From a virus, in IMG/VR virus record IMGVR_UViG_3300042386_000246, positions 1 to 36,792 of that record: a stretch of DNA of 36,792 nt, one strand, 5' to 3'. Each line of letters begins with the position of its first letter. Position 1 is the stretch's first letter. The position numbers and the translations under genes are program-made. The notes beneath the pieces were generated by a model, which was not told the DNA's origin, searched no databases, and was given only the letters and a program-made list of their open reading frames with translations. Positions 1 to 33,576 of this stretch are shown here, piece by piece.

Positions 1-3000
1 TATAATAGTATTTACATTAGACCTGAATCATTTGTGTTCACTTGTGATATGGATGGTAATAGAACGGAACATAAGTTACCTTCAATTGGACAATACGCAT
101 ATTCTAACAAATTACAAATACAATCAGTAACAACTAATACGATAACTGTAAATGTTGGAGCATCAGGACCTAATGTAGAGTTTACTCCAACATCGGCATC
201 ATATAATCCGGCAACTGGTAATTTTGTAGTTACTGTGGGGACTCACAATTTAAGTGTGGGTGAGGGTATAGTACTTTCTACTGGTTCATTTGCGTTTACT
301 TGTGATATGGATAATAATCAATCTACTAAATCTTATCCTAGATTTGGTATTGACCCATATTCAGTTCGTTCTATTCCACTTACCGCTGTAACCGATACTA
401 CATTAACTTTTAACGTTGGTGTATCCGCAGCTAACAAATATTTTACACCAACATCAGCATCCTACAACGCCCTAACAGGTGATATGGTTGTAACCGTTGG
501 TCAGCACGGATTAGGAGTTGGTAGGAGTGTTACTTTAGCAAGTGCTTCAATAGCATTTACTTGTGACCAAGACAATAATTCAACAACTCATAGTTATCCT
601 AGAAGTGGTAGTGACCCATATGCTGGAAAATCAATTGTAATTACTTCAGTTGGTACTTCATCCCATACAATAACTAACGCTCCTTATAATTCATCAACGG
701 GAGTGGTTACTTTAACGGTAGCAGGACATGGATTTAGTAATGGAGATTATATTAAGATTTCTGACAATTCATTAACTTACACTTGTGTATTGGATGATTA
801 TAGTGTTTCTAAATCATATCCAAGACCTGGTTACGATTACCCATCTGGAAGATGGTTAGAAATATCTAATGTAACAACAAATACATTTACTATTAATGTT
901 GGGTCATCTAACTATATTGGCGCACATACATTTATATCAGCAACAGCAAATGGATTACAAAGACAAACTGGTACATTTACAATTAATGTAGGAGATGCTG
1001 GAAGTGCTTCTGGTTCTATTCATACATTTGTATCGGCATCAGCAAATGCTATTGCACATTTACCTCAATCAGTACATACATTTGTATCTGCATCAGCTGG
1101 GGCAATTAAACATTTACCACAAGCAGCTCACACATTTGTTAGAACTACTAAAAATTCAATAAGTACTATACCTGTATTGGTTCAAAATGGAGATGGTTTA
1201 ATTAAAGTAACAAATACAGCTCAATACTCATCATCAATATCAGCAAGTGGAGCTGAATTAGATATTATTACATCATCATTTAAGCATGTAGCTGATATTA
1301 TTGAAAACGGTGTTGCATTTGTACCGGATTCATTAGCAAGAAACTATGATTATGGATTTGAATTATCTACACCAACTTTATTACATATAAGTTCTAAAGA
1401 GCAAACAATTGGTATGGGTTCATATAACTTATCAACTCAAATTACAAACGTAAGTTCTTCTTATGGTACTGTTGTAAACGTTGTTAAAAACGGATTGAGT
1501 GTATTACCTACATTAGTAACAAATACATCATCATCTTTAAAAGTAACAAACGTAAATCCTATAAGACAAGCAACATCAGCATCATCTTTTGATACTAATA
1601 AGATTTCAAGTGGATTTGATTTGATATTAAGTGTAATTGAAAATGGAACATCGGTTCTACCAACAATTATATCAAACACATCAGCAAGTATTAAAGTAAC
1701 TAACACCCCACAATTAATAAGTGGAAGTGCTGCTGGAAGATTGCAAGGTAAATTAATATCAGCATCTTTATCTTTGGTAATTGATGTGTTATTAAGTAAT
1801 GGTACAAGTTCAATTGGACTTAAACAATCAACATTCCCAATAGCAAATTCAAATGCAAAAATAAATTCGGCATATAATCTATTAGTGAGTAACTCTAAAT
1901 TTATAGTTGATGAAACTATTGCTTATATGAGTTCATCTTGGAGTGGATTTGCATATACACAAAGTAAATGTGAAAGAGATTTGACAGGAATACTTAGTGG
2001 TTCGGCATTTGACCTTTTATATGGTGGTAATTCCGCATCTTTATTTAATGGTAAGTTCTATTTTGATTTCCCATCTCAAGCTACTGGTTCTCAATTAGAC
2101 CAAACAATTACGGCAATCAAATACGCAAGTGGATTGGCAGAAAAGGTTGTATTGAATACTGCATTTGTAACTGCATCGCAAGAAACATCGGCATCTTGGA
2201 ATTCATTGAGAGAAAACAAAGCATTCATACAAAGTGAATCAATTGCTTATCTATCTTCTTCTTGGAGTAACTTTGATTATAACGAAACTACTTGTAAGAG
2301 AGATATTGGATACGTTATAGATGCAGTAGCAACGGATTTACTATATGGTGGAAATGAAAGAAGTGTTGTAGCTGGACGATACTACTATGACTTCCCATCT
2401 CAAGCTACAAACGCACAATTAGAACCAACATTGACTGGTATAAGATACGCTAAAGGAACAGCTATGAATGTAGTTGTTAATAAGCAGGTATTTACAGCAT
2501 CTTTGGAAGCTCAATACGCATACGATTTAATAAAAGCTAACAAAGTATTCATACAAAGTGAAAGTATTGCATTTGTAAATGTTAAATACCCTAACTTAGA
2601 TTATAGTGAAAGTAAATGTTATAGAGATTTAGGATATATCATTGATGGAGTAGCAACTGATTTACTTTATGGTGGTAATGAAAGAAGTAGAAAGAACGCA
2701 GATTACTATTATGAGTTCCCATCTCAAGCTAATGGGTCTGGTTCGCAAGTTGTGGAAACGGTAGAGGCAATTAAGTACGCAGCTAGAATAACAACGGCAT
2801 CTATTAGTAGTGCATTAATACCAACACCACAAACTATACCTAATACGTTAGCAAATATTAAAGTAACAAACGCTAATCAATATATTTCAGCATCATCGGC
2901 AACTTCTACTGAAGCAACAATACTATCAGCATCAATTGCTATCGTAACTAACATAGTTGCTAACGGAACTGGTTCAGCAATAGTATCCGCATCATTAAGT

Positions 3001-5346
3001 TTACCAACTTCATCTTATACAACGCCGGTAAGTAATGATAATAGATGGATTGCATACGGAATACTAAAAAATAATATTTCATTCATACAGGATGAAACTA
3101 TCGCATATCTATCATCATCTTGGTCAACTGCATCTTATGATGAAAGTAAGTGTAGACGTGATGTGGGATTGATTATAAGTGGAGCAGCTGAGGATTTAAT
3201 ATTTAACTCAAATTCAGCATCATTATTTAATGGTATATTCTATTATCAGTATCCATCACAGGCGCAAGGAGCACAATTGAATCAAACGCTTGATGGAATA
3301 AACTACGCAAGTAAGTTAGCACAAAAAGTAATTCAAAATGTAACTTATGTAACTGCATCAGCAGTTGTATCAGCATCATACGCATTGATAAGAAAGAATA
3401 GAGAGTTTATACAAAATGAAACTATTGCTTATCTATCTTCTTCTTGGAGTACGGCATCTTATATTGAAGTAACTTGTAAGAGAGATGTTGGTCATATCAT
3501 AGATGCAGTTTCTACGGATTTATTATATGGTGGAAATGAAAGAAGTACAAACGCTGGAGTATTCTATTACTTATATCCATCACAAGCGCAAGGTTCACAA
3601 TTACAACCAACATTAGCAGGTGTTAATTACGCAGGACAACTTTCTAAGAATGTTGCGGCATCATTAACATTTGTGACAGCATCTCAAATTGTATCAGCAT
3701 CGGTTAATTTGTTGAGAAAGAATAGAGAGTTTATACAAAATGAAACCCTAGCTTACTTAACTGCTAGCTGGAGTACATTTGAGTATGATAAAGATAAGTG
3801 TAAGAGAGATGTTGGTTATATCTTAGATGGTGTAACAACTGATTTATTATATGGCGGAAACGAAAGAGGTGTATTGAATGGTAAATTCTATTACGAATAT
3901 CCATCTTTAGCAATCGTTGAAGGTGATGGTGATGGTGTTGGACAATTAGGACAAACAATTGATGGTATAAACTACGCAGGTAGAATAGCACAAAAGATTG
4001 CACAAAATATACTATTCGTAACGGCATCAGTAGAGGCATCGGCATCATTTGATTTATTAAGAAAGAATAAAGCATTTGTGGCAGCTGAAACTATTGCTTA
4101 TGTAAGTTCTTCTTGGAGTGGTGTATATTATAACGAAGCAACTTGTAAGAGAGATGTAGGATACCTAATAGATGCAGCAGCAACGGATGTATTATATGGT
4201 GGACAAGAAAGAAGTGTGATAGCAGGACAGTATTATTACTTATATCCTTCTAACGCAATCAATAAAGGTGTACCATCTACTCAAAATCAATTAGACCCAA
4301 CCCTTACTGGTATCAGATATGCTGGAAAGACAGCTAAAAAAGTAATAATCAATCCAACGTATTTAGTACCATCTGCATCTTTAATAGATACTGCAAAATT
4401 ATTGACAGATAATAAAGAATTAATACAAAAAGAAACTATAACATTCTTAAGTTCGTCTTGGAGTAATTTGAAATACAATGAAGTAAGTTGTAGTAGAGAT
4501 TTAGGATTTATCATAGATGCAATCAGAACTGACTTAGTTTATGGTGGTAACGAAAGAAGTATTGAAGCAGGTTCATATTATTACAAATTCCCATCGGTAG
4601 CAATATTGGATAGTTATGGTGATAATAATGGACAAAAGAAGCAAACGATAGATGGCATAAACTTCGCAAGAGGAATATCTGAAAAAATTGTAGCAAATAC
4701 TCTATTAACTTACTTAGCACCATCTACTAAGAGAAGACAAGCAGCTGAAAGATTGAAATCTGGTAAAGATGAATTGAAACAAAGAGCAATTGGATATACA
4801 AATGGAGCTTTTCCATATTTAGTATATAATGAGGCAAGTTGTTCACGTGATACAGGATTTATTGTAGATGCAGCTGTAACGGATTTATTGTATGGTGGAA
4901 ATGAAAGAGGAATCAGAGCAGCATCTTCATATTATGATGGTCAGTACGGAAGTGCAATAGCTGTGACTAGAGACCAATTATTAGAAACATTGGAAACAAA
5001 TCGTTATCTAAGAACTAGAGCAGAGTTTATAGCAGCTGGAGCACCATTAGAATCATTTGGTTCTTTGATTGTAGCAACTGGTATTGACTACTCTTATAAT
5101 GGTAGTGGTGTGACATTCAAAGCACTTCCTCCAAATCAGGGTGGTAGTGGTGTGGCTGACCCAATATACGAAATTACCGAATTGGGTGGAGGTAGAATCT
5201 TCTTCACATCTGGTAATCAGGATGGTGACTTTAGAATTGGTACGGGATTAAGTATTAATCAGGCAACTGGTACTCTTGTGGGTAGAACATTTAGTAAATC
5301 TTTATTCTCATTAGTAACTCCGTTCTCATTGGCACTACAAATATAA
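1..5346 (+). CDS. Giant repeat-rich phage structural/adhesion protein, 5' end missing
   Basis: The frame is open from base 1, so the gene starts upstream of the window and the first visible ATG (34) is probably internal. Two repeat families are visible. The N-terminal part has four copies of a beta-rich unit with the motif F-x-[FY]-T-C-x-x-D, usually followed by SYPR and DPY (near 34, 290, 560 and 775). From about 1894 to 5040 there are nine helical units of roughly 85-95 residues. Each has F[IV]xxE[ST][IL]AY, then C-x-RD, then DLLYGGNERS and YYY-x-[YF]PS. Between the two families lie shorter repeats of the type VLPTxxxNTSxSxKVTN. I recall similar units in giant structural proteins of marine T4-like phages, but their biochemical role is unknown to me. 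The C-terminus (about 5040-5346) is a non-repeated beta-rich tail. The position beside fibre genes suggests a baseplate-attached fibre or tail decoration. No enzyme motif is evident. Confidence 0.8.
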   Translation, partial: YNSIYIRPESFVFTCDMDGNRTEHKLPSIGQYAYSNKLQIQSVTTNTITVNVGASGPNVEFTPTSASYNPATGNFVVTVGTHNLSVGEGIVLSTGSFAFTCDMDNNQSTKSYPRFGIDPYSVRSIPLTAVTDTTLTFNVGVSAANKYFTPTSASYNALTGDMVVTVGQHGLGVGRSVTLASASIAFTCDQDNNSTTHSYPRSGSDPYAGKSIVITSVGTSSHTITNAPYNSSTGVVTLTVAGHGFSNGDYIKISDNSLTYTCVLDDYSVSKSYPRPGYDYPSGRWLEISNVTTNTFTINVGSSNYIGAHTFISATANGLQRQTGTFTINVGDAGSASGSIHTFVSASANAIAHLPQSVHTFVSASAGAIKHLPQAAHTFVRTTKNSISTIPVLVQNGDGLIKVTNTAQYSSSISASGAELDIITSSFKHVADIIENGVAFVPDSLARNYDYGFELSTPTLLHISSKEQTIGMGSYNLSTQITNVSSSYGTVVNVVKNGLSVLPTLVTNTSSSLKVTNVNPIRQATSASSFDTNKISSGFDLILSVIENGTSVLPTIISNTSASIKVTNTPQLISGSAAGRLQGKLISASLSLVIDVLLSNGTSSIGLKQSTFPIANSNAKINSAYNLLVSNSKFIVDETIAYMSSSWSGFAYTQSKCERDLTGILSGSAFDLLYGGNSASLFNGKFYFDFPSQATGSQLDQTITAIKYASGLAEKVVLNTAFVTASQETSASWNSLRENKAFIQSESIAYLSSSWSNFDYNETTCKRDIGYVIDAVATDLLYGGNERSVVAGRYYYDFPSQATNAQLEPTLTGIRYAKGTAMNVVVNKQVFTASLEAQYAYDLIKANKVFIQSESIAFVNVKYPNLDYSESKCYRDLGYIIDGVATDLLYGGNERSRKNADYYYEFPSQANGSGSQVVETVEAIKYAARITTASISSALIPTPQTIPNTLANIKVTNANQYISASSATSTEATILSASIAIVTNIVANGTGSAIVSASLSLPTSSYTTPVSNDNRWIAYGILKNNISFIQDETIAYLSSSWSTASYDESKCRRDVGLIISGAAEDLIFNSNSASLFNGIFYYQYPSQAQGAQLNQTLDGINYASKLAQKVIQNVTYVTASAVVSASYALIRKNREFIQNETIAYLSSSWSTASYIEVTCKRDVGHIIDAVSTDLLYGGNERSTNAGVFYYLYPSQAQGSQLQPTLAGVNYAGQLSKNVAASLTFVTASQIVSASVNLLRKNREFIQNETLAYLTASWSTFEYDKDKCKRDVGYILDGVTTDLLYGGNERGVLNGKFYYEYPSLAIVEGDGDGVGQLGQTIDGINYAGRIAQKIAQNILFVTASVEASASFDLLRKNKAFVAAETIAYVSSSWSGVYYNEATCKRDVGYLIDAAATDVLYGGQERSVIAGQYYYLYPSNAINKGVPSTQNQLDPTLTGIRYAGKTAKKVIINPTYLVPSASLIDTAKLLTDNKELIQKETITFLSSSWSNLKYNEVSCSRDLGFIIDAIRTDLVYGGNERSIEAGSYYYKFPSVAILDSYGDNNGQKKQTIDGINFARGISEKIVANTLLTYLAPSTKRRQAAERLKSGKDELKQRAIGYTNGAFPYLVYNEASCSRDTGFIVDAAVTDLLYGGNERGIRAASSYYDGQYGSAIAVTRDQLLETLETNRYLRTRAEFIAAGAPLESFGSLIVATGIDYSYNGSGVTFKALPPNQGGSGVADPIYEITELGGGRIFFTSGNQDGDFRIGTGLSINQATGTLVGRTFSKSLFSLVTPFSLALQI
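34..1140 (+). repeat. Four-copy FTCDxD beta repeat region (protein-level)
   Basis: Four imperfect protein repeats lie here. Each has FTCD or YTCV at its core, a polar loop, [SL]YPR, DPY and a strand ending in T[IF]xVNVG. They diverge at DNA level, so they are old duplications rather than recent slippage. Degenerate half units with HTFVSASA follow at about 930-1130. Confidence 0.7.
1894..5040 (+). repeat. Nine tandem helical C-x-RD / DLLYGG repeats (protein-level)
   Basis: Nine copies begin near 1894, 2215, 2536, 3073, 3403, 3724, 4066, 4411 and 4756. Each has one conserved Cys directly before x-RD. Copies 1 and 4 have lost the NERS part and read NSASLFNG instead. Copy 9 is the most divergent. 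Confidence 0.75.
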
Positions 5347-18518: not shown

Positions 18519-21500
18519 ATGGCGTTTAACGGTAATAATCCAAATGGTTTAAATCAGACTAGTGTAAATAGTGTATCACTTTTTGTAAGTGGTTCTCCTA
18601 TTTTAAATGCCTCATCTGAATCTGTTAATATTGTAGGAAATTTTAGTTCTTCTGCAGTACAAACAAATGTAATTGGAGTAATTGGTACATCACCACTTCA
18701 AATAAAAGCAAATACCCAAATTAGTGGCTCTTTTAATATTTCATCATCAATATCAGCATCTTTGTTTAGAGGAGATGGTAGTGGATTGTTTAATATATCA
18801 GCTACATCAATTGGTGATTTGGATAGATTAAAATCAGGTTCAGCAACGGCAATAATTTCTCCAAATAAAGGTTTAGTAGTTAATACTGATTTAACAGTAG
18901 CTGGTACAATAAATGCAACTGAATTAAAAGTAACTTATATATCATCATCAATAATCTACGCAAGTGGTTCATCAAAATTTGGTGATGCTCAAACTGATAA
19001 GCAGGAATTTACTGGAAGTGTTGGGATTACTGGTTCATTAACATTTGGTGTTGGTTCTTTACCGCAAGATGGTAGTACAAATGAAGTTTTAGTTTATAAT
19101 ACAACAACTGGTAGAGTTGGTGTAAAAACAGCAGCAGCAACATCAGGAACATCTGGTACTTCTGGAACATCGGGAACATCAGGAACATCTGGTTCATCTG
19201 GTACATCGGGTTCATCAGGAACTTCTGGTTCTCAGGGTTCGTCTGGAACTTCTGGAACATCAGGAACTTCTGGAACATCAGGAACTTCTGGTTCAACTGG
19301 TTCGGCTGGCACATCAGGAACTTCTGGAACATCAGGAACTTCTGGAACATCAGGAACTTCTGGTACAAGCGGTAGTAGTGGTACAAGTGGTACATCAGGA
19401 ACTTCTGGAACATCGGGCTCAACCGGTAGTAGTGGTACAACGGGTTCGGCAGGAACTTCTGGAACATCAGGAACTTCTGGAACATCAGGAACTTCTGGTA
19501 CAAGCGGTACATCTGGACTAAGTGGTAGTAGTGGAACAAGCGGTACGAGTGGTTCATCGGGAATAAGTGGTACAAATGGTACGGGTGGTACAACTGGTAC
19601 AGCTGGTACATCGGGAACCTCTGGAAGAAGTGGTAGTAGTGGTACTTCGGGAACTTCTGGAACTGCAGGAAGTGGTGGTATAACTGGTGGTGGCGGTTCA
19701 AATGGAACATCAGGAACTTCTGGTAGTAGTGGGACAAGCGGTACAAGTGGAACGAATGGAACGGCTGGTAGTGGAGGTTCATCGGGAACTTCAGGTATAA
19801 CTGGAGCCGGTGGAGGAAGTGGTTCATCGGGAACTTCGGGAACAAGTGGAAGTAGAGGTACATCAGGAACTTCTGGTTCATCAGGAACTTCTGGTTCATC
19901 TGGAACTTCTGGAATAAGTGGTAGTGGGGGTTCATCGGGAACTTCAGGAACTTCGGGAACAAGTGGAAGTAGAGGTACATCAGGAACTTCTGGAGCACAA
20001 GGTTCATCGGGTTCAGCAGGAACATCTGGAACTTCTGGAGCACAAGGTTCTTCTGGTTCAGCAGGAACATCAGGAACTTCTGGTACATCTGGAATTTCAG
20101 GTTCGGCAGGTACATCGGGAACATCTGGAACTTCTGGAGCACAAGGTTCTTCTGGTTCAGCAGGAACATCTGGAACTTCTGGAGCACAAGGTTCTTCTGG
20201 TTCAGCAGGAACTTCTGGTACAAGTGGTAGTAGAGGCACTTCAGGAACTTCTGGTATAAGTGGTAGTAGTGGGACTAGTGGTAGTAGTGGGGTGAGTGGT
20301 TCGGCTGGAACTTCAGGAACTTCTGGTACAAGTGGTTCGGCTGGAACTTCTGGTACAAGTGGTAGTAGAGGTACTTCAGGAACTTCTGGTACAAGTGGCT
20401 CATCGGGAACTTCTGGAGTAAGTGGTTCTGCTGGTACAAGCGGTAGTAGTGGTACTTCTGGAACTTCTGGAACTTCTGGAAGTAGTGGTACTTCTGGTTC
20501 TTCTGGAACTTCTGGAAGTAGTGGAACATCAGGTACGCGTGGTACATCTGGTACATCTGGATTATTAGCATTAACTGGTACAACTGATAATGGTGTAATC
20601 ACACTAAATGGTTCAGCTCCTAACGGAACTGTTGAAGCAAATTTAAGATTCGATGGTACTACATTAGCAGTAACTGGTAACGCTACAATTAGTGGTGACC
20701 TTACTGTAAGTGGTACAACAACATATATTAATACAACAACATTAAATGTAGGTGATAATATCATTACACTTAACGCAGATATTGGAGCATCAACTACACC
20801 AACTGAAAATGCTGGTATAGAAGTTAAGAGAGGCAATGCAGCAACAAAACAATTTTATTGGGATGAAGGTAGTGATAGATGGTATCACGACGATAACACA
20901 TACATAGCTGGTAATTTAGTTCTTAGTGGAACTGTTGATAGTGGACAAGGAGCAACTGAAGTTCATTTAATGAACCAAAATGTTCGTACAACTGATTCAC
21001 CATCATTCAATAGAATAACATCAACTGTAGCAACTGGTACATCACCATTAGCAGTATCATCTACAACTTTAGTTAGTAACTTAAACTCTGATTATTTAGG
21101 TGGACAACAAAATTCATTATTCTTTAGAAATTTAAGTGGAGGTACTGGTACTAGTATTGATACTTATGTTGATAATGGATTTAGAACCTTAAGTTATACA
21201 GGATATAGTTCTGGATTGTGGTCTACTAATATGGGTGGTTCTACTGGAACAGTTCAAATGGAGTTTGAATATAATACTCCTGTTAGAGGATTCAAAATAA
21301 GAAATAGAACGGATAATACATCTTGGTCATCGGTTGGATGGGTAACTATGACAACTGCAAATCAAGGACATATTGCTGGAACAATTTGGCATAGTGCAAA
21401 TGATGGAACTGGTACTGGATTGGATGCGGATTTATGGGACGGTTACCAATTCTCAGATTATTTAAACCAACCGGTTAGAACAACTGATAACGTAACACAT

Positions 21501-24500
21501 AATAGACTAACATTAGGAGTTGCAACTGGTACATCTCCATTGGTAGTTTCATCAACTACATTAGTATCAAGCCTCAATTCAGATTTATTGGATGGGCAAG
21601 AAGGTACTTATTATGACCAAAGACAATATACAAGAGCAGATAACTATTTAGGTGGTTACTATGTGAGTGGTGGTAGTGAAAAACCAAACAACGCTATATT
21701 TGGAGCTGGTAAGTTTAAAGTAGCAATGCTATCCAGTGGTAATTTAGGATTTAGTGGTCCTTGGAGTGATGTGTTATGGACAAGTACATATAGTGGTGGT
21801 GATGTTAAGAGTAGTTTCGCTATTGTAAGTGACAAATACTCAGAAAATGTTTTCTTCGCAAAACAAGCATTTGATTCGGCAAATTGGGGAAGTGGTAGAT
21901 TAGTTCTTACTGATTTCAATTCTCCATATGCATATTATATGAATCAGTATGTTCGTACAACCGATTCTCCTACTTTTAATGATTTAACAGTAACAGGTAG
22001 AGCTGTAATTGGTGGTAACTTTAGTAATCAGGCATATAGTTCAGTAGGTTCTACTAGATTACATTTTGGTGGTGGTGACTCTGATGCAAATAGCAATTAC
22101 TACATCGGTACAAACTTAGAAAATTTTGGTGGTAACTATACTAAATTGGATTTAAGATGGCACACTGGTATTCGTATGGGTGCACAGCCTGGATATGGTG
22201 GTGTTCGTTTCTATAATAATGAAGATTTAGATGCAGTTATTTTATCAGTTGGTACTAGTGATGCAAACGTTAAAGTAACAAATAGCTTAATAGCTGGAAG
22301 TACTGGTACTCCTCAAGCTACTATACAAGCGGTTGGTAATTTAAGATGGTCTTCTGGTGGTAACTCATATTACACTTATAGTGATATGGATAGTGGAGGT
22401 CTTTATATAGAGACTGTAGATAATGGCACCAGCCGTGCAAAAATGAGATTCCAAACTAGACCTTCAAACTCTGGAGCATATACAACATATCAAATTGATT
22501 CTAATAATAACGCTCATTATTGGAGTATTAATGGAACAAATTATTTAACATTAGATACTGGTAATTTGAATGTAAATAATGCCGGTTTAATTGTAAATGG
22601 TTTAGCAAGATTCAATAGTAGTGGCGCTCCGTTTATGAGATGGCATAATACATCTGCATCTGGATATATGTTATTGGGAATGTATGATGATAATAGTACT
22701 CAAAGAGTTTGGTTTGGTATGGGTGGTAGAACACAATCTTTTGGTTCTTATGCAGCATATTCTACTGATGGATTATCTATGAATTTAGATGGAGCTGGCG
22801 CAATCAATATATCAAATAGAGGTTCATCAAAAAGAATCAATTTAAATACTGGTACTGAAGGTGCATCGAATTTTACTACATTAAGAATGGTAAATCAGGA
22901 AGTATATGTAACGCCTGATTCGGTAAATGGTAATTTACGTTCACCACTATATTATGTTTCGGATGATACAACTTATTTATGGAATAGTAATAGAATAGTA
23001 GTAAACCAAGTAACATTCCCTTATAGAGAATGGGATTATAGTTGGGGAGCTCATGGTACTGGTAGTGGTACTCAATCAATGTCCTTTAGAATGTGGGATA
23101 GTTACACTCAAAGTGGAGCACCTTCATCTTATGGTACATTAATTGAATATTATGGATTAGGTGGGCATCAACATGACCAATACTATTTCTATCAGGGTGA
23201 AATTCTTCATAGATACGGATGGTATGGTACTACGAACTGGCAAAGTGGGTGGAGAGCAATGTTGCATGCTGGAAACTATTCTGGATACGCAATTCCTATT
23301 AGTGGTGGTATAAATATGACTGGTTCTTATGGTTTAAATGACCAAAGATTATATCTAAGAACTAACGGAGATACCAATCACTTTATATGGAATGCGGATG
23401 ATGATTGGGAAGAAATGAGATACTATTTTGGAACTGGATTTAGAGTTCAAAGTAGTAATGGTGTAACATCGGCAACATTTACAAATAGTGGTATTAACGC
23501 CGTTAATATGACCATTGGTGGCGCACAAGTTTGGTATAATAGTGGTGGTTGGTTAGGTGATTTAGCATCTTATGGATTTACTAGAGCTTGGGGACATGCT
23601 ATGTCTGGGGGTTCTGAATTTGTAATCCTATATAAAGGTGGACAAGGATATACATTAGTTGATGGCTCTTATTACGCTTACGAAGCAGGTGGATTCTATT
23701 CATCAAATAACTCAGCAGGAAACACATTATTAGGATTTAATGCAGATAGTACATCTTCTGTTAGATTTAATTCGGCAGTTAGAATTGGTACAAACAATAA
23801 CCTTTACTTAGATTACAACTACGGACAATCTGTTGTAGGTGTTTATACATCTACTAGATATCAGGGTGTATTTGCAATGAGTGATTCATATAAATTGGCA
23901 ATTGATGGAAGTAGTCCTGGTAACTTATATGGTTTAGCTTGGTCACATCCAAACGCTGGAGGACAAGCTGGATTTTTAAATGACCACGGATTATTAGTAA
24001 TGAACTATGGTACTACATTCGCAGCAATTTCTTCTAGAATTTGGGCAAGAGACCAAATGAACGCACCAATTTATTACGATAGAGATACTGGATATTATGG
24101 TGATTTTAATAGTGAGACCAACTGGCAAGGTTTGACCAATTATGGTAAAATGAGAATTGGTTTAACTGCAAAGGGTAACTTTAGAAGAAATGATTATACT
24201 GGAGATACTAACTATTGGGTAGGTTCAATGGGATGGGGTACAACGGACCTTATCTCTGTATTTACTTGGGGTAGTGGATTCTTTGATACATGGAGTAATC
24301 CGGCTAACCAACCTGCTGGTACATCTCACTGGACTGGAGTTCAGGCACTTCACTATGTAAGTTCATATAATAGTGGATATGGGTGGCAATTAGTTGGTGG
24401 ACCTATTGAAGGTGCATGGTGGACATCTTATTGGAGTTCAAAGCGTGCTTGGTATAAGTTAGCAATGTACGGATTGAATGAAGTTGGTGTTGGTTCACTA

Positions 24501-25877
24501 TATTCTACAATTATGTACGATGCCAATGACACATCTCGATATGTAGACCCTAATGGATATAGTTATTTTACAAACACTGGTTTAGTATTAGAAGTTGTAA
24601 AACTTGGAACAGGTCCTAATAGTAGAGCATTTATGGCAGCAAACAACCAGGGTGATAACTCTTGGGGTATTGTTGGTGAATTTAGAGTAAATGGTGGACC
24701 TGGAGGTGATAGACCTTCTATCTTATTCTCAAGCGGATTTAATAGTAATACATGGTCTTGTGGATATGGATATGCAGATGATTCTTATTTTAGAATCAAT
24801 CACGACCACGGACATAGAAACCAAAGTTGGGGTACTACCGACTTCTATATTGATAGAGGTGGTAACTCATATTCAAATGGTAGTTCTAGAGCACCAATAT
24901 TCTATGACCAAAACAATACGGCATATTATACTGACCCTACTGGATATTCTCAAATGAGTTCTGGTGAATTCAACAACTATATGAGAGCAGCTCGTATAGA
25001 TTTCATTGGTACTGGTGGTAACTCTGGACAAGGTACAAATGCATACTCTATCTTCCAAGAAGGTGGTGGATGGGGTTATCCTTATCCGGATTTAAGAATT
25101 GCATATCATACTGGTATTAAATTGGGAGGAAATGCTGGTTCTTATGAAGGAACTAGAGTTTATTCTGATTACGATATGAGTGATTTGTGTATCCAATTGG
25201 CAGGTTCATCAAACTATTCATTTAAGTATAAATGGATGTGGACCAATGACACGGGATATTACGCCAGTCAAAACGGAGCTCACTGGTATCCAAACAACAT
25301 CACATATGGTGCTTGGAGAATGAATGGTAATAGAAATGGATGGTATGGACACGTAATCGATTCAGCATATTTACCTCACTATATGTGGGAGAGTGGTAAT
25401 GGTGGAATATATTTACAAGACGCTGGAAGATGGGTATTGTATCATTCGTTAGGAAATAACTGTACGGGATTTTGTACATCTTCAACATCTGGAGCATATG
25501 GTATATATGTAGCTAAAGGTATTTATTCTGAAGGTAATATAGTAGCTTATTCTGATAGACGAGCAAAAGAAAATATTATAACTGTTGATAATGCTTTAGA
25601 TAAAGTATCACAAATGAGAGGTGTATTTTATAGTAGAATTAATGATGAAACCAAAAAAAGAAATATAGGGGTAATTGCACAAGAAGTAGAAAAAATATTA
25701 CCTGAGGTAGTAACATACGCAGCTGATGTGGATGAGTATGGTGTTTCATATGGTAATTTTGCTGGTTTATTTATTGAAGCAATAAAAGAACAAAATGAAA
25801 TTATAAAAAAACAATCAGCTGAAATTAAAGAATTGAAAGAAATTTTAAATAATTTAATACTTAATATTAAAGGATAA
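18519..25877 (+). CDS. Giant tail fibre with GTS stalk and C-terminal S74 chaperone domain
   Basis: A 2452-aa protein. Residues 1-205 resemble the first part of the other giant fibre (YISSSIIYASGSSKFGD). Residues about 206-684 are Gly-Thr-Ser triplets. Residues about 685-2340 are beta-rich, with two copies of ATGTSPLxVSSTTLVSxLNS and several YD-x-N-x-T-x-YY-x-DP units, rich in Tyr, Trp and Gly as in receptor-binding fibres. Residues 2345 to about 2452 form an S74 (endosialidase-type) intramolecular chaperone: SDRRAKENI, GVIAQEVEKILPEVV, YGVSYGNF, then a C-terminal coiled coil (about 2420-2450). In this family the domain trimerises, folds the fibre and cuts itself off just before the Ser of SDxRxK, here Ser2345. 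This is the best candidate for the main host-recognition fibre. Confidence 0.88.
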   Translation: MAFNGNNPNGLNQTSVNSVSLFVSGSPILNASSESVNIVGNFSSSAVQTNVIGVIGTSPLQIKANTQISGSFNISSSISASLFRGDGSGLFNISATSIGDLDRLKSGSATAIISPNKGLVVNTDLTVAGTINATELKVTYISSSIIYASGSSKFGDAQTDKQEFTGSVGITGSLTFGVGSLPQDGSTNEVLVYNTTTGRVGVKTAAATSGTSGTSGTSGTSGTSGSSGTSGSSGTSGSQGSSGTSGTSGTSGTSGTSGSTGSAGTSGTSGTSGTSGTSGTSGTSGSSGTSGTSGTSGTSGSTGSSGTTGSAGTSGTSGTSGTSGTSGTSGTSGLSGSSGTSGTSGSSGISGTNGTGGTTGTAGTSGTSGRSGSSGTSGTSGTAGSGGITGGGGSNGTSGTSGSSGTSGTSGTNGTAGSGGSSGTSGITGAGGGSGSSGTSGTSGSRGTSGTSGSSGTSGSSGTSGISGSGGSSGTSGTSGTSGSRGTSGTSGAQGSSGSAGTSGTSGAQGSSGSAGTSGTSGTSGISGSAGTSGTSGTSGAQGSSGSAGTSGTSGAQGSSGSAGTSGTSGSRGTSGTSGISGSSGTSGSSGVSGSAGTSGTSGTSGSAGTSGTSGSRGTSGTSGTSGSSGTSGVSGSAGTSGSSGTSGTSGTSGSSGTSGSSGTSGSSGTSGTRGTSGTSGLLALTGTTDNGVITLNGSAPNGTVEANLRFDGTTLAVTGNATISGDLTVSGTTTYINTTTLNVGDNIITLNADIGASTTPTENAGIEVKRGNAATKQFYWDEGSDRWYHDDNTYIAGNLVLSGTVDSGQGATEVHLMNQNVRTTDSPSFNRITSTVATGTSPLAVSSTTLVSNLNSDYLGGQQNSLFFRNLSGGTGTSIDTYVDNGFRTLSYTGYSSGLWSTNMGGSTGTVQMEFEYNTPVRGFKIRNRTDNTSWSSVGWVTMTTANQGHIAGTIWHSANDGTGTGLDADLWDGYQFSDYLNQPVRTTDNVTHNRLTLGVATGTSPLVVSSTTLVSSLNSDLLDGQEGTYYDQRQYTRADNYLGGYYVSGGSEKPNNAIFGAGKFKVAMLSSGNLGFSGPWSDVLWTSTYSGGDVKSSFAIVSDKYSENVFFAKQAFDSANWGSGRLVLTDFNSPYAYYMNQYVRTTDSPTFNDLTVTGRAVIGGNFSNQAYSSVGSTRLHFGGGDSDANSNYYIGTNLENFGGNYTKLDLRWHTGIRMGAQPGYGGVRFYNNEDLDAVILSVGTSDANVKVTNSLIAGSTGTPQATIQAVGNLRWSSGGNSYYTYSDMDSGGLYIETVDNGTSRAKMRFQTRPSNSGAYTTYQIDSNNNAHYWSINGTNYLTLDTGNLNVNNAGLIVNGLARFNSSGAPFMRWHNTSASGYMLLGMYDDNSTQRVWFGMGGRTQSFGSYAAYSTDGLSMNLDGAGAINISNRGSSKRINLNTGTEGASNFTTLRMVNQEVYVTPDSVNGNLRSPLYYVSDDTTYLWNSNRIVVNQVTFPYREWDYSWGAHGTGSGTQSMSFRMWDSYTQSGAPSSYGTLIEYYGLGGHQHDQYYFYQGEILHRYGWYGTTNWQSGWRAMLHAGNYSGYAIPISGGINMTGSYGLNDQRLYLRTNGDTNHFIWNADDDWEEMRYYFGTGFRVQSSNGVTSATFTNSGINAVNMTIGGAQVWYNSGGWLGDLASYGFTRAWGHAMSGGSEFVILYKGGQGYTLVDGSYYAYEAGGFYSSNNSAGNTLLGFNADSTSSVRFNSAVRIGTNNNLYLDYNYGQSVVGVYTSTRYQGVFAMSDSYKLAIDGSSPGNLYGLAWSHPNAGGQAGFLNDHGLLVMNYGTTFAAISSRIWARDQMNAPIYYDRDTGYYGDFNSETNWQGLTNYGKMRIGLTAKGNFRRNDYTGDTNYWVGSMGWGTTDLISVFTWGSGFFDTWSNPANQPAGTSHWTGVQALHYVSSYNSGYGWQLVGGPIEGAWWTSYWSSKRAWYKLAMYGLNEVGVGSLYSTIMYDANDTSRYVDPNGYSYFTNTGLVLEVVKLGTGPNSRAFMAANNQGDNSWGIVGEFRVNGGPGGDRPSILFSSGFNSNTWSCGYGYADDSYFRINHDHGHRNQSWGTTDFYIDRGGNSYSNGSSRAPIFYDQNNTAYYTDPTGYSQMSSGEFNNYMRAARIDFIGTGGNSGQGTNAYSIFQEGGGWGYPYPDLRIAYHTGIKLGGNAGSYEGTRVYSDYDMSDLCIQLAGSSNYSFKYKWMWTNDTGYYASQNGAHWYPNNITYGAWRMNGNRNGWYGHVIDSAYLPHYMWESGNGGIYLQDAGRWVLYHSLGNNCTGFCTSSTSGAYGIYVAKGIYSEGNIVAYSDRRAKENIITVDNALDKVSQMRGVFYSRINDETKKRNIGVIAQEVEKILPEVVTYAADVDEYGVSYGNFAGLFIEAIKEQNEIIKKQSAEIKELKEILNNLILNIKG
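19138..20570 (+). repeat. Second Gly-Thr-Ser triplet repeat
   Basis: About 475 residues of GTS-type triplets, with GSS, GSA, GAQ and GSR variants. They include repeated GAQGSSGSAGTSG blocks near 19990-20210. The 18-bp core unit is the same as in the upstream giant fibre. It lacks the FFGSS interruptions. Confidence 0.9.
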
Positions 25878-29295: not shown

Positions 29296-29784
29296 ATGGC
29301 AGAAATATTAGAGTTTGATAAGATGTTCTATACGAACTTCGAACCGAAGATGAAAAATAGATATGTGATGGAGATTGAAAATATCCCTTCATATCTTGTA
29401 AAGGCAGCAAATAGACCTTCAATTCAATTTGAACCTATTGTAATGGACCACATCAACGTTAAGAGAAAGTTGAAAGGTAAGGGAGATTGGCAAGATGTGA
29501 CTATCACTTTGTATGACCCAATTGTTCCTTCAGCAGCTCAGGCGGTAATGGACTGGATTCGTTTAGGACATGAATCAATAACTGGTAGAGATGGATACGC
29601 TGACTTCTATAAGAAAGATATCACATTCTATCTATTAGGACCTGTTGGTGATAAGATTGAACAATGGACTTTAAAAGGTGCATTTATCTCTCAGGCTAAC
29701 TTTGGTGACTTAGCATTTGATTCTAATGAACCTGCAACAATAGAATTAACATTAACTTACGATTACGCAATCTTAGAATTCTAA
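29296..29784 (+). CDS. gp19: Tail tube protein
   Basis: A 162-aa protein, nearly the length of T4 gp19 (163 aa). It has the family pattern: FEPKMKNRYVMEIENIPSY near residue 16, AANRP with a following beta strand, KGDWQDVTITLYDP near 63, and a C-terminal L[TS]LTYDYAI-type strand. It polymerises as hexameric rings into the tube through which DNA passes, inside the sheath. It follows the sheath gene, as in T4, with an AAGGA Shine-Dalgarno 9-13 nt upstream of the ATG. It is closed by a strong intrinsic terminator. Confidence 0.95.
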   Translation: MAEILEFDKMFYTNFEPKMKNRYVMEIENIPSYLVKAANRPSIQFEPIVMDHINVKRKLKGKGDWQDVTITLYDPIVPSAAQAVMDWIRLGHESITGRDGYADFYKKDITFYLLGPVGDKIEQWTLKGAFISQANFGDLAFDSNEPATIELTLTYDYAILEF

Positions 29785-29891: not shown

Positions 29892-30653
29892 ATGAGCGAA
29901 AAACAATATGATTTTCCAACGGAGGTATTAGACCTTCCATCTCAAGGTAAAGTATATCCAAAAGATAATCCATTATCATCTGGCAGAATTACTATAAAGT
30001 ACATGACTGCAAAAGAAGAAGATATTCTATCAAATCAAAATCTTATCAAAAAAGGTATTGTTTTGGATAAATTATTTGAATCTATTATCGTTGATGGTGT
30101 AAACCCAAATGATATTATATTGGGTGACAAAAACGCTATTATATTAGCAACAAGATTATTAGGATATGGTCCTGATTATGTATTTAATTTCTATTCTTCT
30201 AAATTAGGACAATCAATACAAGCAACGGTTGATTTGGGTAAAGTTAAAACAAAAGAAGTAGACTTTTCAATGTTCAATAATAAAAATGAATTTGAATTTA
30301 AATTACCAAGCAACGGAACTAAGATTACATTTAAATTACTTACACACGCAGATGAAACGGCTATTGAAAGAGATATTACCGCATTGGAAAAACTTGGTAA
30401 AGATGTATCTGCATCAATCACAACTCGTTTAAGATATATGATTAAATCAGTTGATGGTGATAACGCTATTGGTACTATTAATAAATTTGTTAATGGTATG
30501 TTAGCTAGAGATAGTAGAGCATTTAGAGAATATATAAAAACAATATCACCTGATTTGGATATGAAGTTTGAATATACCCACGAAGATGGTGAGGTGGAGG
30601 AGGCGCCTATCTCGATGGGGGTAGGGTTTTTTTGGCCTGGCTCCGAATCATAG
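29892..30653 (+). CDS. T4 gp26-like baseplate/tail-assembly protein (frameshift upstream partner)
   Basis: A 253-aa protein. The N-terminus has VLDLPSQGKVYP, then ITIKYMTAKEEDILSNQ, then ATRLLGYGPDY, the pattern of the T4 baseplate family that includes gp26 (PF12322, as I recall it). Length fits that family (about 207-257 aa). The C-terminal end turns acidic (EDGEVEEAPI), then meets GVGFFWPGSES and a TAG stop. The Phe codons lie in a seven-T run (30627-30633). Directly behind the run, the frame one base further on is open for 70 codons, so a +1 or -2 slip would give a fusion of about 317-318 aa. Position between the tube and the tape measure is where tail-assembly-chaperone frameshift pairs (lambda G/GT) usually lie. 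The family call is fairly firm; the frameshift is inferred. Confidence 0.82.
   Translation: MSEKQYDFPTEVLDLPSQGKVYPKDNPLSSGRITIKYMTAKEEDILSNQNLIKKGIVLDKLFESIIVDGVNPNDIILGDKNAIILATRLLGYGPDYVFNFYSSKLGQSIQATVDLGKVKTKEVDFSMFNNKNEFEFKLPSNGTKITFKLLTHADETAIERDITALEKLGKDVSASITTRLRYMIKSVDGDNAIGTINKFVNGMLARDSRAFREYIKTISPDLDMKFEYTHEDGEVEEAPISMGVGFFWPGSES
30598..30633 (+). promoter_or_regulatory. Candidate programmed frameshift site (T7 run with upstream SD-like AGGAGG)
   Basis: TTTTTTT at 30627-30633 is read as GGG TTT TTT TGG in the zero frame. In the frame of the downstream gene the previous stop is TAG at 30622-30624, and the frame is then open from 30625 to 30843. AGGAGG lies at 30598-30603, GGGGGTAGGG precedes the run directly, and AGGCGCCT (30601-30608) is a perfect palindrome. 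The local GC content is far above that of the rest of the gene. Confidence 0.5.
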
Positions 30654-30657
30654 TATT

Positions 30658-30846
30658 ATGGTCCATACCCAAATATTTGATATGGTTCAATATGGGAATG
30701 GATTTACTATAATGGAAATGTATAAAATGCCAACTTATCTTAGAAATTTTTACTATAATAAGTTGGTAGATGCAAAGAAAAAAGAATCAGAAGAAGTTCA
30801 GAAAACAAATAAATCATCAAATTCTAAAGTTAGGATACGCCGATAA
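30658..30846 (+). CDS. Small downstream partner (candidate frameshifted T-like chaperone domain)
   Basis: The frame is open from 30625. The first ATG (30658) gives 62 aa and lies 4 nt after the TAG of the gp26-like gene, with no Shine-Dalgarno. The protein has QIFDMVQYGNGFTIMEMY, then MPTYLRNFYYNKLVDAKKKE, a short helical region ending in a basic tail. A short MP-x-x-L-R-x-FY helix would suit the C-terminal extension of a tail assembly chaperone that binds the tape measure. T4 order would place gp51 here, which is an alternative name. It could be made by frameshift fusion, by coupled re-initiation, or both. A terminator stem overlaps its last codons. Confidence 0.6.
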   Translation: MVHTQIFDMVQYGNGFTIMEMYKMPTYLRNFYYNKLVDAKKKESEEVQKTNKSSNSKVRIRR

Positions 30847-30907: not shown

Positions 30908-31147
30908 ATGAAAAGATATAAAATATCAGAATCAAAATTAAATGAGTTTTGGGGATTATTTGGTAAGAAAAAACCTGAAACTATGCAGCAAATTATTGAT
31001 GATGACCCAATATTAAAAAAATTAGATGCTGAATTAGCAGATATTAATCAATCATATGTTCCTAGACTTAGACAAATGAAAAAAGAAGACCCAAGATTGT
31101 TTAAAAAAATGCAAGATATGGGGATTATAGGAAAAGATTTTAAGTAA
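30908..31147 (+). CDS. Small charged protein of unknown function
   Basis: A 79-aa, mainly helical, lysine-rich protein. It begins MKRYKISESKLNEFWGLFG, a type of start I have seen in small phage proteins with an I-[ST]-ES-x-L motif. It ends 8 nt before the tape measure gene and is the first gene after a terminator and a promoter-like element. It has no transmembrane segment or recognised domain. A role in tape measure or tail assembly is possible from position only. Confidence 0.6.
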   Translation: MKRYKISESKLNEFWGLFGKKKPETMQQIIDDDPILKKLDAELADINQSYVPRLRQMKKEDPRLFKKMQDMGIIGKDFK

Positions 31148-31155
31148 TACTATAA

Positions 31156-33576
31156 ATGGCAATAAAACCACTTACACCAGCTGAACAATCAGAATTAAAT
31201 CGTTTGTTAGAAGAAAACGCTCAGATATCTGAACGTATTCGTATTATAAACGAAAAAATTGCTACTGCCGTAGGTTCTGAAAAACAGCAGTTGGAAGATA
31301 TGATGGAGCAGGAAAAAATAAGATTAAAGCTCCAAAAAGAATCTGCAATTCAATATCAAAAAAGAAAGGAATATTTAGATTACGAAGAAGATGCATTGGA
31401 ATCAATTGCATCGTTAAGTAAGGCCACTAAAAAAATTATAGATGGTAAGTTTACTACTGAAAGTTCATTAGCTTCTGTTACTCAACGAGTAATTAAAATG
31501 AAGCAAGCTGAGGTAAACTTGGATGGCGCTGCTTTAGAAAAATCAATAGCAAGGAGAGAAACATTAGAAGGGTTGCAAAAAGCTGTAATCGAACAAGCAC
31601 AATCATTAGCACATCACAGCGGAGAGCATATTGCTCATGAGGAAAAAATAGAACAATTTGAGAGAAGTATATCTCATTTAACTACAAAACAAAAAGAAGA
31701 AGCTAGGCAATTATATAAAATAAAAGAGGCTTTAGAGAAAAAAGAAGAAAGAATTGCTGAATTGCATGAACAACAACATCAATTAATGCATCATTTGCCG
31801 GGGTTTATGAGTGAAGCTTTGGATTTTTCTAAAGGATTAATTAAAGCTATTACAAAATTAGGACCTTTGGCATTAGTATTTGCTGCAGCTGGGGCAGCAT
31901 TACATTCGTTTATTGCATTAGACCAAGCTGCAGAAGATTTTAGAAAAGAAACTGGATTAACACTATCACAAACAAAAGAACTAGCACATCAAGCGCATCA
32001 TATTGAGATGTATTATAGAGATGCTGGTATTGAGTTGAAGGATGTGTTTGATACAATGTCAGCATTAAAAACATCATTTAGTGATGTAGCACAATTTTCG
32101 GAAGAAACTGTAGCTGCATTAACTTTAATGAAAACCAATTTTGGTGTTACCGCTGAACACGCAGCTAATGTACAAAGTATATTTGAAAGTGTGGGTGGAT
32201 TGAGTTCCGATACAGCTGCAAATGTTCAATTGCAAGTTGCTAATATGGCTAAGATGTCTGGAATAGCTCCTGATAAAATATTTAAAGATATTGCAGAAAA
32301 TGCGGAAGCAGCATCAACATTTTTTAAAGGTGATTTGAATGCATTAACAAAAAATGCAGTACAAGCACAAAGAATGGGTACTTCTTTAAAACAACAAGTA
32401 TCTTTAGCAGAAAAATTATTAGATTTTGAAAATGGTATAGAGGAAGAATTGGTAGCAGCAACATTTGTTGGGGGTGAATTTAATTTAAGTAGAGCAAGAG
32501 CATTGGCAATGGAAGGTAAACTTGCTGAAGCTAATGCAGAAACGTTATCACAATTACAAAGAAGTGGTGACTTCCGTAAAAAAGATTACTTCACACAACA
32601 ACAATTAGCTAAAGCAGCTGGTATGAGTGTGGAAGAAATTAATAAGCAATTAAACGCACAAGAAAAATTAAACTCATTATCAGCTGAAGACCAAAAAATG
32701 GCACAAGAAGCTATTGATAAAGGATTAGATATAACTAATATAGATAAAGAACAATTAGGACTTGAAGTAAAGAAATTTGCAGCACAGCAAGAACAGCAAG
32801 GGCAATTGACTAGAATGCAAAACGCATTTATGGGTATTGTTGCTACTGTTGGTGGCGTACTATCTCCACTATTAGAAGGGGTAGCAAGTATAATGAATTT
32901 AATACTATTACCAATAAACGCAGCTGTTGAGGGATTGGCAAAAATGGCAGGATTCTTAAAAGAAAATTTGGATATAGCTGGTGTATTTTTAGGAGTATTA
33001 GGTGCAATATACGCACAGAAAATAGCAACTGTTGTTGTATCTCAATATGAAAATGCTATTATGATAGCTAAGCTGGCACTTACAAATAGGGCAGCATTAG
33101 CAGAGAAAAAAGGATTATTAGCTGGTGTAGCTAAAATGGCTATAAGTGCATATAACTCAATTGCAGCATTCATCCCTGTTATAGGTCCAATTTTAGGTGC
33201 GGTGGCAGCTGCTGGTGCATTGGCGTATGGATATAGTTTGGTTAGTAAAGCTGGAGACGTAATGTCACCTGCTGATGGTAAAACTAGAGTATCAACAAAA
33301 GAAGGTGGTTTATTTGAATTATCGCCAAACGATGATTTAGTAGCAGCACCTGGAGCAGCAAAAGCGATGCAAGGAGCAGCGGCTGGCGGAGGTACACCTC
33401 AAATTAATTTAGCAATTTTATCTGCACCATTAAATGCTATGATAGCTGAAATAAAAGGATTAAGAGCAGATATGGCTGCTGGTAAAATATCGGTACATAT
33501 GGATGGAGCAAAAGTTACAGCAGGAGTATCAAATCAGGTTAATAAGAGTACACGAAATAACTTTGCAATAGCATAA
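31156..33576 (+). CDS. Tape measure protein (tail length ruler)
   Basis: An 806-aa protein. Residues about 8-220 are strongly coiled-coil (many Glu/Lys/Gln, heptad-like). A hydrophobic stretch GPLALVFAAAGAALHSFIAL lies at 236-255. A helical middle follows, with ATFVGGEFNLSRARALAMEG near 435. Hydrophobic segments occur at about 555-630 and 672-697 (IPVIGPILGAVAAAGALAYG). The C-terminus has VSTKEGGLFELSPNDDLVAAPGA, a sequence type common at the ends of phage tape measure proteins. No lysozyme or peptidase domain is seen. The ruler lies in the tube lumen and is ejected into the envelope, where hydrophobic segments may help DNA entry. T4 gp29 is shorter (590 aa), so a somewhat longer tail is expected. 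Position after the chaperone-like pair supports the call. Confidence 0.85.
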   Translation: MAIKPLTPAEQSELNRLLEENAQISERIRIINEKIATAVGSEKQQLEDMMEQEKIRLKLQKESAIQYQKRKEYLDYEEDALESIASLSKATKKIIDGKFTTESSLASVTQRVIKMKQAEVNLDGAALEKSIARRETLEGLQKAVIEQAQSLAHHSGEHIAHEEKIEQFERSISHLTTKQKEEARQLYKIKEALEKKEERIAELHEQQHQLMHHLPGFMSEALDFSKGLIKAITKLGPLALVFAAAGAALHSFIALDQAAEDFRKETGLTLSQTKELAHQAHHIEMYYRDAGIELKDVFDTMSALKTSFSDVAQFSEETVAALTLMKTNFGVTAEHAANVQSIFESVGGLSSDTAANVQLQVANMAKMSGIAPDKIFKDIAENAEAASTFFKGDLNALTKNAVQAQRMGTSLKQQVSLAEKLLDFENGIEEELVAATFVGGEFNLSRARALAMEGKLAEANAETLSQLQRSGDFRKKDYFTQQQLAKAAGMSVEEINKQLNAQEKLNSLSAEDQKMAQEAIDKGLDITNIDKEQLGLEVKKFAAQQEQQGQLTRMQNAFMGIVATVGGVLSPLLEGVASIMNLILLPINAAVEGLAKMAGFLKENLDIAGVFLGVLGAIYAQKIATVVVSQYENAIMIAKLALTNRAALAEKKGLLAGVAKMAISAYNSIAAFIPVIGPILGAVAAAGALAYGYSLVSKAGDVMSPADGKTRVSTKEGGLFELSPNDDLVAAPGAAKAMQGAAAGGGTPQINLAILSAPLNAMIAEIKGLRADMAAGKISVHMDGAKVTAGVSNQVNKSTRNNFAIA

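Follow-up and report, generated by a model that had tools for sequence, protein, structure and literature searches.

A candidate +1 frameshift on UUU_UGG in the gp26-like tail assembly chaperone gene of a virus contig and its relatives

Introduction

The window studied here is the whole of a virus contig of 36,792 bases (record IMGVR_UViG_3300042386_000246, positions 1-36,792), and its subject is a gp26-like tail gene. This one gene very probably makes two tail assembly chaperones (TACs), a short form and a longer form that would be reached by a +1 ribosomal slip on UUU_UGG. A similar forward slip would operate across a large group of T4-like phages. Comparison with relatives indicates that both reading frames are protein-coding and meet at the slip site, and that selection has kept both the slip codon and a sequence context that avoids a -1 signal. 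The parts of the locus are given below in amino acids (aa) and nucleotides (nt).

29892..30653, plus strand: gp26-like gene, short product (TAC N form, 253 aa); PF12322 24.9 bits, narrowly over the cut-off of 24.5; phrog_150 E 2.8e-8
30625..30846, plus strand: +1 frame, predicted C-terminal domain of the long product (fusion of 317 aa); open frame, and ratio of nonsynonymous to synonymous polymorphism (pN/pS) in the +1 group
30627..30635, plus strand: candidate slip site TTT TTT TGG, with P-site TTT at 30630-30632 (inferred slipping codon) and A-site TGG at 30633-30635; TTTTTTTGG in 81/81 loci L001-L081
30651..30653, plus strand: 0-frame stop TAG, 21 nt past the start of the P-site codon; direct reading
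30622..30624, plus strand: last +1-frame stop TAG, upstream limit of the slip; direct reading

The slip site and its two frames

At its end the gp26-like gene reads GGG (30624) TTT TTT TGG CCT GGC TCC GAA TCA TAG in the 0 frame. Free of stops from position 30625, the +1 frame extends 70 codons beyond the T run before it closes at TAA 30844-30846. A +1 shift would give a fusion of 317 aa with the predicted junction peptide GVGFFGLAPNH (two Phe), and a -2 shift one of 318 aa with GVGFFFGLAPNH (three Phe). An earlier reading made by a model from the letters alone (the sequence-only reading) had described the same codons and stop, the same second frame after TAG 30622-30624 and a fusion of about 317-318 residues, and direct reading agrees with it; for a -1 slip it had expected about 26 extra codons, and 25-27 further codons were computed.

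TTTTTTTGG occurs twice in the window against a mean of 0.98 in shuffled sequences. The motif in a single window sequence is therefore no evidence by itself, and its weight rests on conservation. There is no canonical -1 heptamer (X_XXY_YYZ) joined to a -1 domain here, since the window reads G_TTT_TTT and its domain lies in the +1 frame. Sequencing error is an unlikely cause of the arrangement, as TTTTTTTGG is present in all 81 loci from many samples and in the isolate genomes of Mel-JY01 and RM378.

Conservation of the +1 arrangement

Three sets of relatives were used, namely the best 80 of 157 (window protein), the best 80 of 600 and the best 80 of 597. From these, 275 loci were scored: 81 of the window group (L001 being the window itself), 97 of the second set, 17 from a phage collection and 80 of cyanophage type; L110 is the same phage as L087. 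Loci L108, L109, L146 and L175, in which the gene runs off the contig, were left out, as was L295 from the scoring of bacterial metagenome-assembled genomes (MAGs). The scoring accepted TTTTTTC, or TTT or CTT with T or C as the next base, provided that the other frame stayed open for at least 25 codons past the stop; under this rule any other slip site would count as none. Clustering at 90% identity gave 159 representatives, 86 of the +1 and 73 of the -1 type.

The second domain was found in the +1 frame in 183 of the 275 loci, in the -1 frame in 89 and in neither in three (L100, L105 and L244). L244 is a -1-type locus with its heptamer present, cut by the contig end. On the +1 side 183 of 185 loci fit, the window included, and L100 and L105 are the exceptions. 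Comparing the T run and the frame relation in relatives was a check that the sequence-only reading had named beforehand, and the outcome favors its shifted frame. It had also held that relatives without the slippery run but with separate open reading frames (ORFs) and their own starts would speak against it; these two of the 185 +1-side loci are organized in that way, and the rest are not. In the window and the best 80 of its 157 relatives, TTTTTTTGG and a second domain in the +1 frame occur together in 81/81, while the surrounding bases vary.

The extensions are recognizable as one family. A profile built from 35 +1 extensions matches (E 1e-3 or better) 183/183 +1 and 64/89 -1 extensions, one built from 28 -1 extensions matches 89/89 -1 and 79/183 +1 extensions, and none of the 272 reversed decoys was matched by either. 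As a control, 179 other ORFs of at least 100 aa in the +1-representative loci were inspected; an overlapping +1 frame open for at least 50 codons past the stop was present in 8 and the other frame in 4, and these may be ordinary next genes.

The geometry of the site is also conserved. The P-site codon and the next base are TTTT in 82/86 +1 representatives, and in all 86 the distance from the start of the slip codon to the 0-frame stop is 12-21 nt, with the second frame already open at least 5 nt ahead of the slip codon. Among distant relatives the site varies to TTC TTT TGG (n = 14), CTT TTT TGG (n = 3) and TTT TTT TAC (n = 2). The phage immuto has TTT CTT TGG, the Microcystis phage Mel-JY01 and the Rhodothermus phage RM378 have TTT TTT TGG, SP-15 has TTT TTT CAC, the Streptococcus phage GXN1 has TTC TTT CGT and the uncultured LR756508 has AAC TTT CTA; LIS04 is also +1. 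All nine readable bacterial MAG loci agree with the +1 arrangement (L290: TTT TTT TTC). The seven-T run, proposed earlier as the slippery site, is present in the window and its close relatives but is not essential, since TTC TTT TGG, CTT TTT TGG, TTT CTT TGG and TTT TTT CAC occur. The recurring element appears instead to be a codon (UUU, once CUU) whose tRNA can pair again after a step of one base, in most cases with UGG as the next codon.

The second frame is under purifying selection. In sequence pairs of the +1 group at 65-97% nucleotide identity, its pN/pS was 0.26 both for codons 8-20 and for codons 20-40, whereas the other frames gave 0.82-4.33 (0.82 and 4.33 for codons 8-20). The base preceding seven T (n = 73) was C in 44 cases, G in 25, A in 4 and T in none. 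Furthermore, Asn, Asp and AGY codons before the T run end in C in 32/32 cases, compared with 24% elsewhere in the same genes and 21/104 before other Phe codons. A T before the run would create T_TTT_TTT, a -1 signal, so the slip site seems to avoid the -1 heptamer and to be tuned against slipping back. The sequences behind these base counts are related to one another.

Alternative explanations

The sequence-only reading had left the slip as +1 or -2. The shift into the +1 frame, fusing both frames, is strongly supported by the comparison; its -2 variant fares badly. A -2 slip on the seven-T run would yield the 318-aa fusion with three Phe, the P-site tRNA could indeed also re-pair two bases back at TTT TTT or CTT TTT sites, and phage Mu is given as a precedent for -2 in a review (PMC5009743). 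In 17 of the 183 +1-type loci, however, the -2 re-pairing codon would be TCT, ACT or AGT, which are not Phe codons, and the frame relation there is unchanged. These are the 14 loci with TTC TTT TGG, L084 and L085, and L191, which belongs here by our choice of slip codon. A +1 slip gives TTT or TTC and keeps pairing at all 17, and for this reason +1 is preferred, and -2 was rejected and is considered improbable. Slippage of RNA polymerase on the T run could in principle open the second frame as well, as it is possible on long T runs, although seven is rather short. The run is down to four T in the 14 loci with TTC TTT TGG and to runs of three in immuto (TTT CTT TGG), with the same frame relation, and T, which would extend the run, is avoided just before it. 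On these short runs polymerase slippage was rejected, and it is the least credible of the explanations, with very little probability left to it.

Could the second ORF simply start by itself, through re-initiation or an internal start? The window offers an ATG at 30658 in the second frame, 4 nt past the 0-frame stop; an ATG, GTG or TTG lies in the +1 frame ahead of the slip site in 51/86 representatives (ATG in 32); and the annotation of Mel-JY01 has such a second ORF, from 4749. In L100 and L105 the second domain forms an ORF by itself, outside the +1 frame, that begins at an ATG and is some 20 residues longer, an arrangement that may be a later split of the domain. Against two separate genes, 27/86 representatives lack any ATG, GTG or TTG between the opening of the frame and the end of codon 15, and their codons 7-15 nevertheless have a pN/pS of 0.37 in the second frame versus 0.78 and 7.66 in the others; either a shift or an unusual start must therefore lead into the domain there. 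After the slip site, none of these three codons occurs before codon 16 in 69/86 representatives, there is no ATG at all in 10/86, and the position of the first ATG is variable. A conserved slip codon and preceding base would, moreover, serve no need of an independent gene. An own start was thus rejected as the general case on the 27 strict start-free representatives, and we hold it to be unlikely, though a little less so than the -2 slip.

The +1 shift on UUU_UGG also has to face a number of observations that weigh against it. The window is not among the 27 strict cases, in which alone an own start is excluded by sequence, and its fusion, shift and products are predictions from sequence alone. 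The two-gene arrangement of L100 and L105 and the possible upstream starts in 51/86 representatives belong here too, as does the lack of clear selection in second-frame codons 0-5 (pN/pS 0.83). The counts treat related sequences as independent, and the slip codon in SP-15, LIS04, GXN1 and LR756508 is our own assignment. The PF12322 cut-off is missed by immuto and Mel-JY01, though both match phrog_150. Compared directly with T4 gp51, the +1 C domain matches weakly (hhalign 30%, E 5e-4). No stimulator of a known type is conserved in the +1 group, where downstream folding is weak and the GGAGG described in the next section is distant, too far upstream for the Shine-Dalgarno effects known to us. 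Finally, the structural matches reported below are weak: VIA-align Z values fall to 3.8 in the third row, with plainly unrelated rows from 3.7 down, and Foldseek gave none at E 0.001 or better (2ob9 at E 1.7, prob 0.44).

Candidate stimulators

Two elements upstream of the slip site were considered as stimulators.

30596..30603, plus strand: GGAGGAGG, Shine-Dalgarno-like GGAGG copies with starts 34 and 31 nt upstream of the P-site codon; enrichment in relatives
30606..30625, plus strand: possible hairpin just before the T run, window only; folding z -2.6 for 30590-30660

GGAGG occurs within 70 nt upstream in 41/86 representatives, 34 of these at 31-35 nt, compared with 47/1625 background stretches. 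Glu is encoded as GAG within 60 nt of the slip site in 142/235 cases versus 381/1648 elsewhere, so that the synonymous choice is enriched too. An upstream hairpin reportedly favors +1 frameshifting in yeast (PMC6321510). As a conserved signal the hairpin of the window was rejected, since 4 pairs form in the consensus of 20 relatives and no covariation supports them. Downstream folding had a mean z of -0.59 in the +1 group (36 representatives) and of -1.51 in the -1 group (28). An Rfam scan of the window gave none at gathering score and two chance-level matches near the slip site.

Relatives with a -1 shift

The 89 of 275 loci in the -1 class have the second domain in the -1 frame at T_TTT_TTC; they comprise cyanophages, KVP40 and others. 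T_TTT_TTC is present in all cyanophage-type contigs kept (best 80 of 597), and the -1 frame is open for at least 40 codons past the stop in all but the cut L244. The heptamer was also found in KVP40, Ci1, YB07, S-PM2, Desulfovibrio phage 7757, Ah1, Rhizobium phage IC12, Atu_ph07 and LR756511. GAGG (46) or GAAGG (19) lies 9-10 nt before it in 65/73 -1 representatives, a spacing that resembles that of E. coli dnaX; an encoded Glu-Gly may be behind part of this conservation.

The cyanophage and KVP40-type gp26 resembles that of the window in the place of the site, a Phe-Phe at the gene end, and in a related second domain. It differs in shifting by -1 at T_TTT_TTC with GAGG or GAAGG nearby, whereas the window group would shift by +1. 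The C domains of the two groups are homologous (hhalign 96.9%, E 1.8e-10). In Syn9, gp26, a 47-aa 'gp51-like' ORF and a large gene stand in a row, the ORF being in the -1 frame and open from T_TTT_TTC. The short 'gp51' annotations of Syn9 and S-PM2 (L197:7248-7391 and L282:2720-2893) both lie in the -1 frame at the end of gp26 and look like frameshift extensions of it. The gp51 of cyanophage and marine vibriophage was reported to be without its first ~200 residues (PMC3037559). A -1 frame extension would account for these shortened proteins.

T4 gp26 and gp51

PF12322 matches both T4 proteins, gp26 with E 8.8e-64 and gp51 with E 3.9e-52, and in this T4 is like the window. T4 gp26 ends near the position of the slip site, and gp51 continues beyond it with a C-terminal part for which hhalign shows homology to the -1 domain (97.7%, E 2.5e-12); the match of gp51 to the +1 domain is weak. 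T4 differs in having two full genes in place of a frameshift. The suggestion of the sequence-only reading that gp26/gp51-type genes are the counterpart of the G/GT system proved right, though it was not new. To judge from its title and the papers that cite it, the description of T4 gp26 and gp51 as short and long chaperones was published in 2022 (Vladimirov, Gautam and Davidson, 2022). One of the citing papers states that TAC genes of T4-like phages are known to contain poly-T -1 signals. The 2016 review still listed T4 as the exception (PMC5009743).

In a midpoint-rooted tree, several branches of which are long, gp26 and gp51 fall into a single clade (99/92), next to KVP40, Ah1 and Ci1 (93/85, slightly below a starred branch). 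The gp26 of RB43 clusters with gp51, and gp26, gp51 and their neighbors are all on the -1 side (100/98). In RB43, gp51 and gp26 are tandem on one strand and followed by a gp25-like ORF (L193:2001-3294), whereas the T4 pair is divergent. Given the homology of the gp51 tail to the -1 domain and the position of the gp26/gp51 clade near -1 phages, the T4 line most likely replaced the frameshift by gene duplication. LR756511 and Atu_ph07 (L088 and L192) are -1 members with N domains on the +1 side, so either there were several changes of direction or -1 was the original state of the +1 side. The tree implies four changes in all.

Gene neighborhood and host

The genes around the gp26-like gene in the window are the following.

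29296..29784, plus strand: tail tube gene, upstream of the gp26-like gene; PF06841 E 6.9e-8
30908..31147, plus strand: 79-aa ORF between the second frame of the chaperone and the tape measure gene; tblastn
31156..33576, plus strand: tape measure gene; phrog_167 E 6.1e-7

Tube and tape measure genes thus flank the gp26-like gene, as expected of a G/GT-type chaperone and as had been read from the sequence alone, with the 79-aa ORF also in between. A sheath gene (PF04984) lies upstream as well. The order tube, chaperone, tape measure recurs in Mel-JY01, SP-15, LIS04 and immuto (where the tube is annotated as a tail completion protein); in RM378 the gene order at the locus is different. The 79-aa ORF is conserved in close relatives, with a tblastn match in 78/189 loci L002-L190, many of which end before it. 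Neither this ORF nor the second-frame C domain searched alone matched any Pfam or PHROG family at a meaningful E-value. The tRNA search of the window found none. Elsewhere in the window, 18519-25877 and 34-5346 encode very long tail-fibre-like proteins of 2452 and 1770 aa (PHROG matches).

Among phage records the best match was immuto, a Flavobacterium phage, at 51% identity; of 10 related contigs found in bacterial genomes, 6 are in bins named Bacteroidota. A Bacteroidota host is therefore likely for the window phage.

Predicted fold and proposed mechanism

The AlphaFold2 model of the 317-aa fusion has a mean predicted local distance difference test score (pLDDT) of 91 and a predicted template modeling score (pTM) of 0.84. 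Against 983 chains, the top two VIA-align matches were the HK97 tail assembly chaperone 2ob9 (Z 5.6, residues 2-92) and YqbN 3klu (Z 5.4, residues 129-219), which we take to be a tail-chaperone relative. By this model the short form may hold two chaperone-like domains. A sequence search for solved structures found none, the best match having E 0.078 and being unrelated.

In the proposed mechanism, most ribosomes would read GGG TTT TTT TGG and end translation a few codons later, with the short form of 253 aa as the product. A minority would slip one base forward when the tRNA-Phe on UUU 30630-30632 shifts its pairing to the following UUU, UGG still being in the A site. GGC would then be read next, and 70 more codons would lead to a 317-aa product that carries an additional helical domain. 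If the locus works like lambda G/GT, the tape measure protein would be coated by the short form, and tube subunits would be brought to it by the long form. We infer the slippage itself, the slipping codon, the rate implied by 'most' and 'minority', and the chaperone function.

Comparison with known systems

The lambda G/GT gene lies between tube and tape measure genes. Lambda shifts by -1, whereas the window group would shift by +1 on UUU_UGG in the family PF12322; the comparison is made at the level of the system. In prfB, the gene for release factor 2 (RF2), the slip sequence is CTT TGA and the P-site tRNA re-pairs one base forward, a likeness that is closest in immuto with its CTT TGG. The differences are that prfB has UGA in the A site where the sense codon UGG stands here, and that no Shine-Dalgarno is conserved here at 3 nt. 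The window does have AGGG at the prfB spacing, but only 25/73 sequences have G directly ahead of the T run. Autoregulation is the outcome in prfB, and two products would be the outcome here. SPP1 uses a +1 tail frameshift, and the chaperones of SPP1 and HSTV-2 belong to other protein families. Both are like what is proposed for the window in a +1 shift at the tail chaperone locus, which for HSTV-2 is called 'very likely' (PMC5009743).

No report of a +1 shift in the gp26 family was found in the literature searched; Vladimirov 2022 is known to us only by its title and citing papers, so absence from print is not claimed. As far as checked, three things appear to be new: the +1 UUU_UGG class, the way it avoids the -1 heptamer, and a frameshift direction that changes within a single family. 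A further proposal is offered tentatively, as a possibility to which we give less than even weight. UUU_UGG may be a new kind of +1 signal at a sense codon that evolved at the Phe-Phe pair of the relatives' -1 heptamer; the family would then have switched direction while counter-selecting the old -1 signal, with GGAGG 31-35 nt upstream as a distant stimulator.

Conclusion

The annotated phage records that were looked at lack the second domain, truncate it or list it separately. The comparison suggests that one orthologous tail gene gives the same protein pair in three ways, by a -1 shift, by a +1 shift and, in T4, by two genes. The T4 exception would thereby become part of an evolutionary series. 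Why do ribosomes go forward on a U run in some phages and backward on nearly the same run in others? For this question the family would provide a natural comparison.
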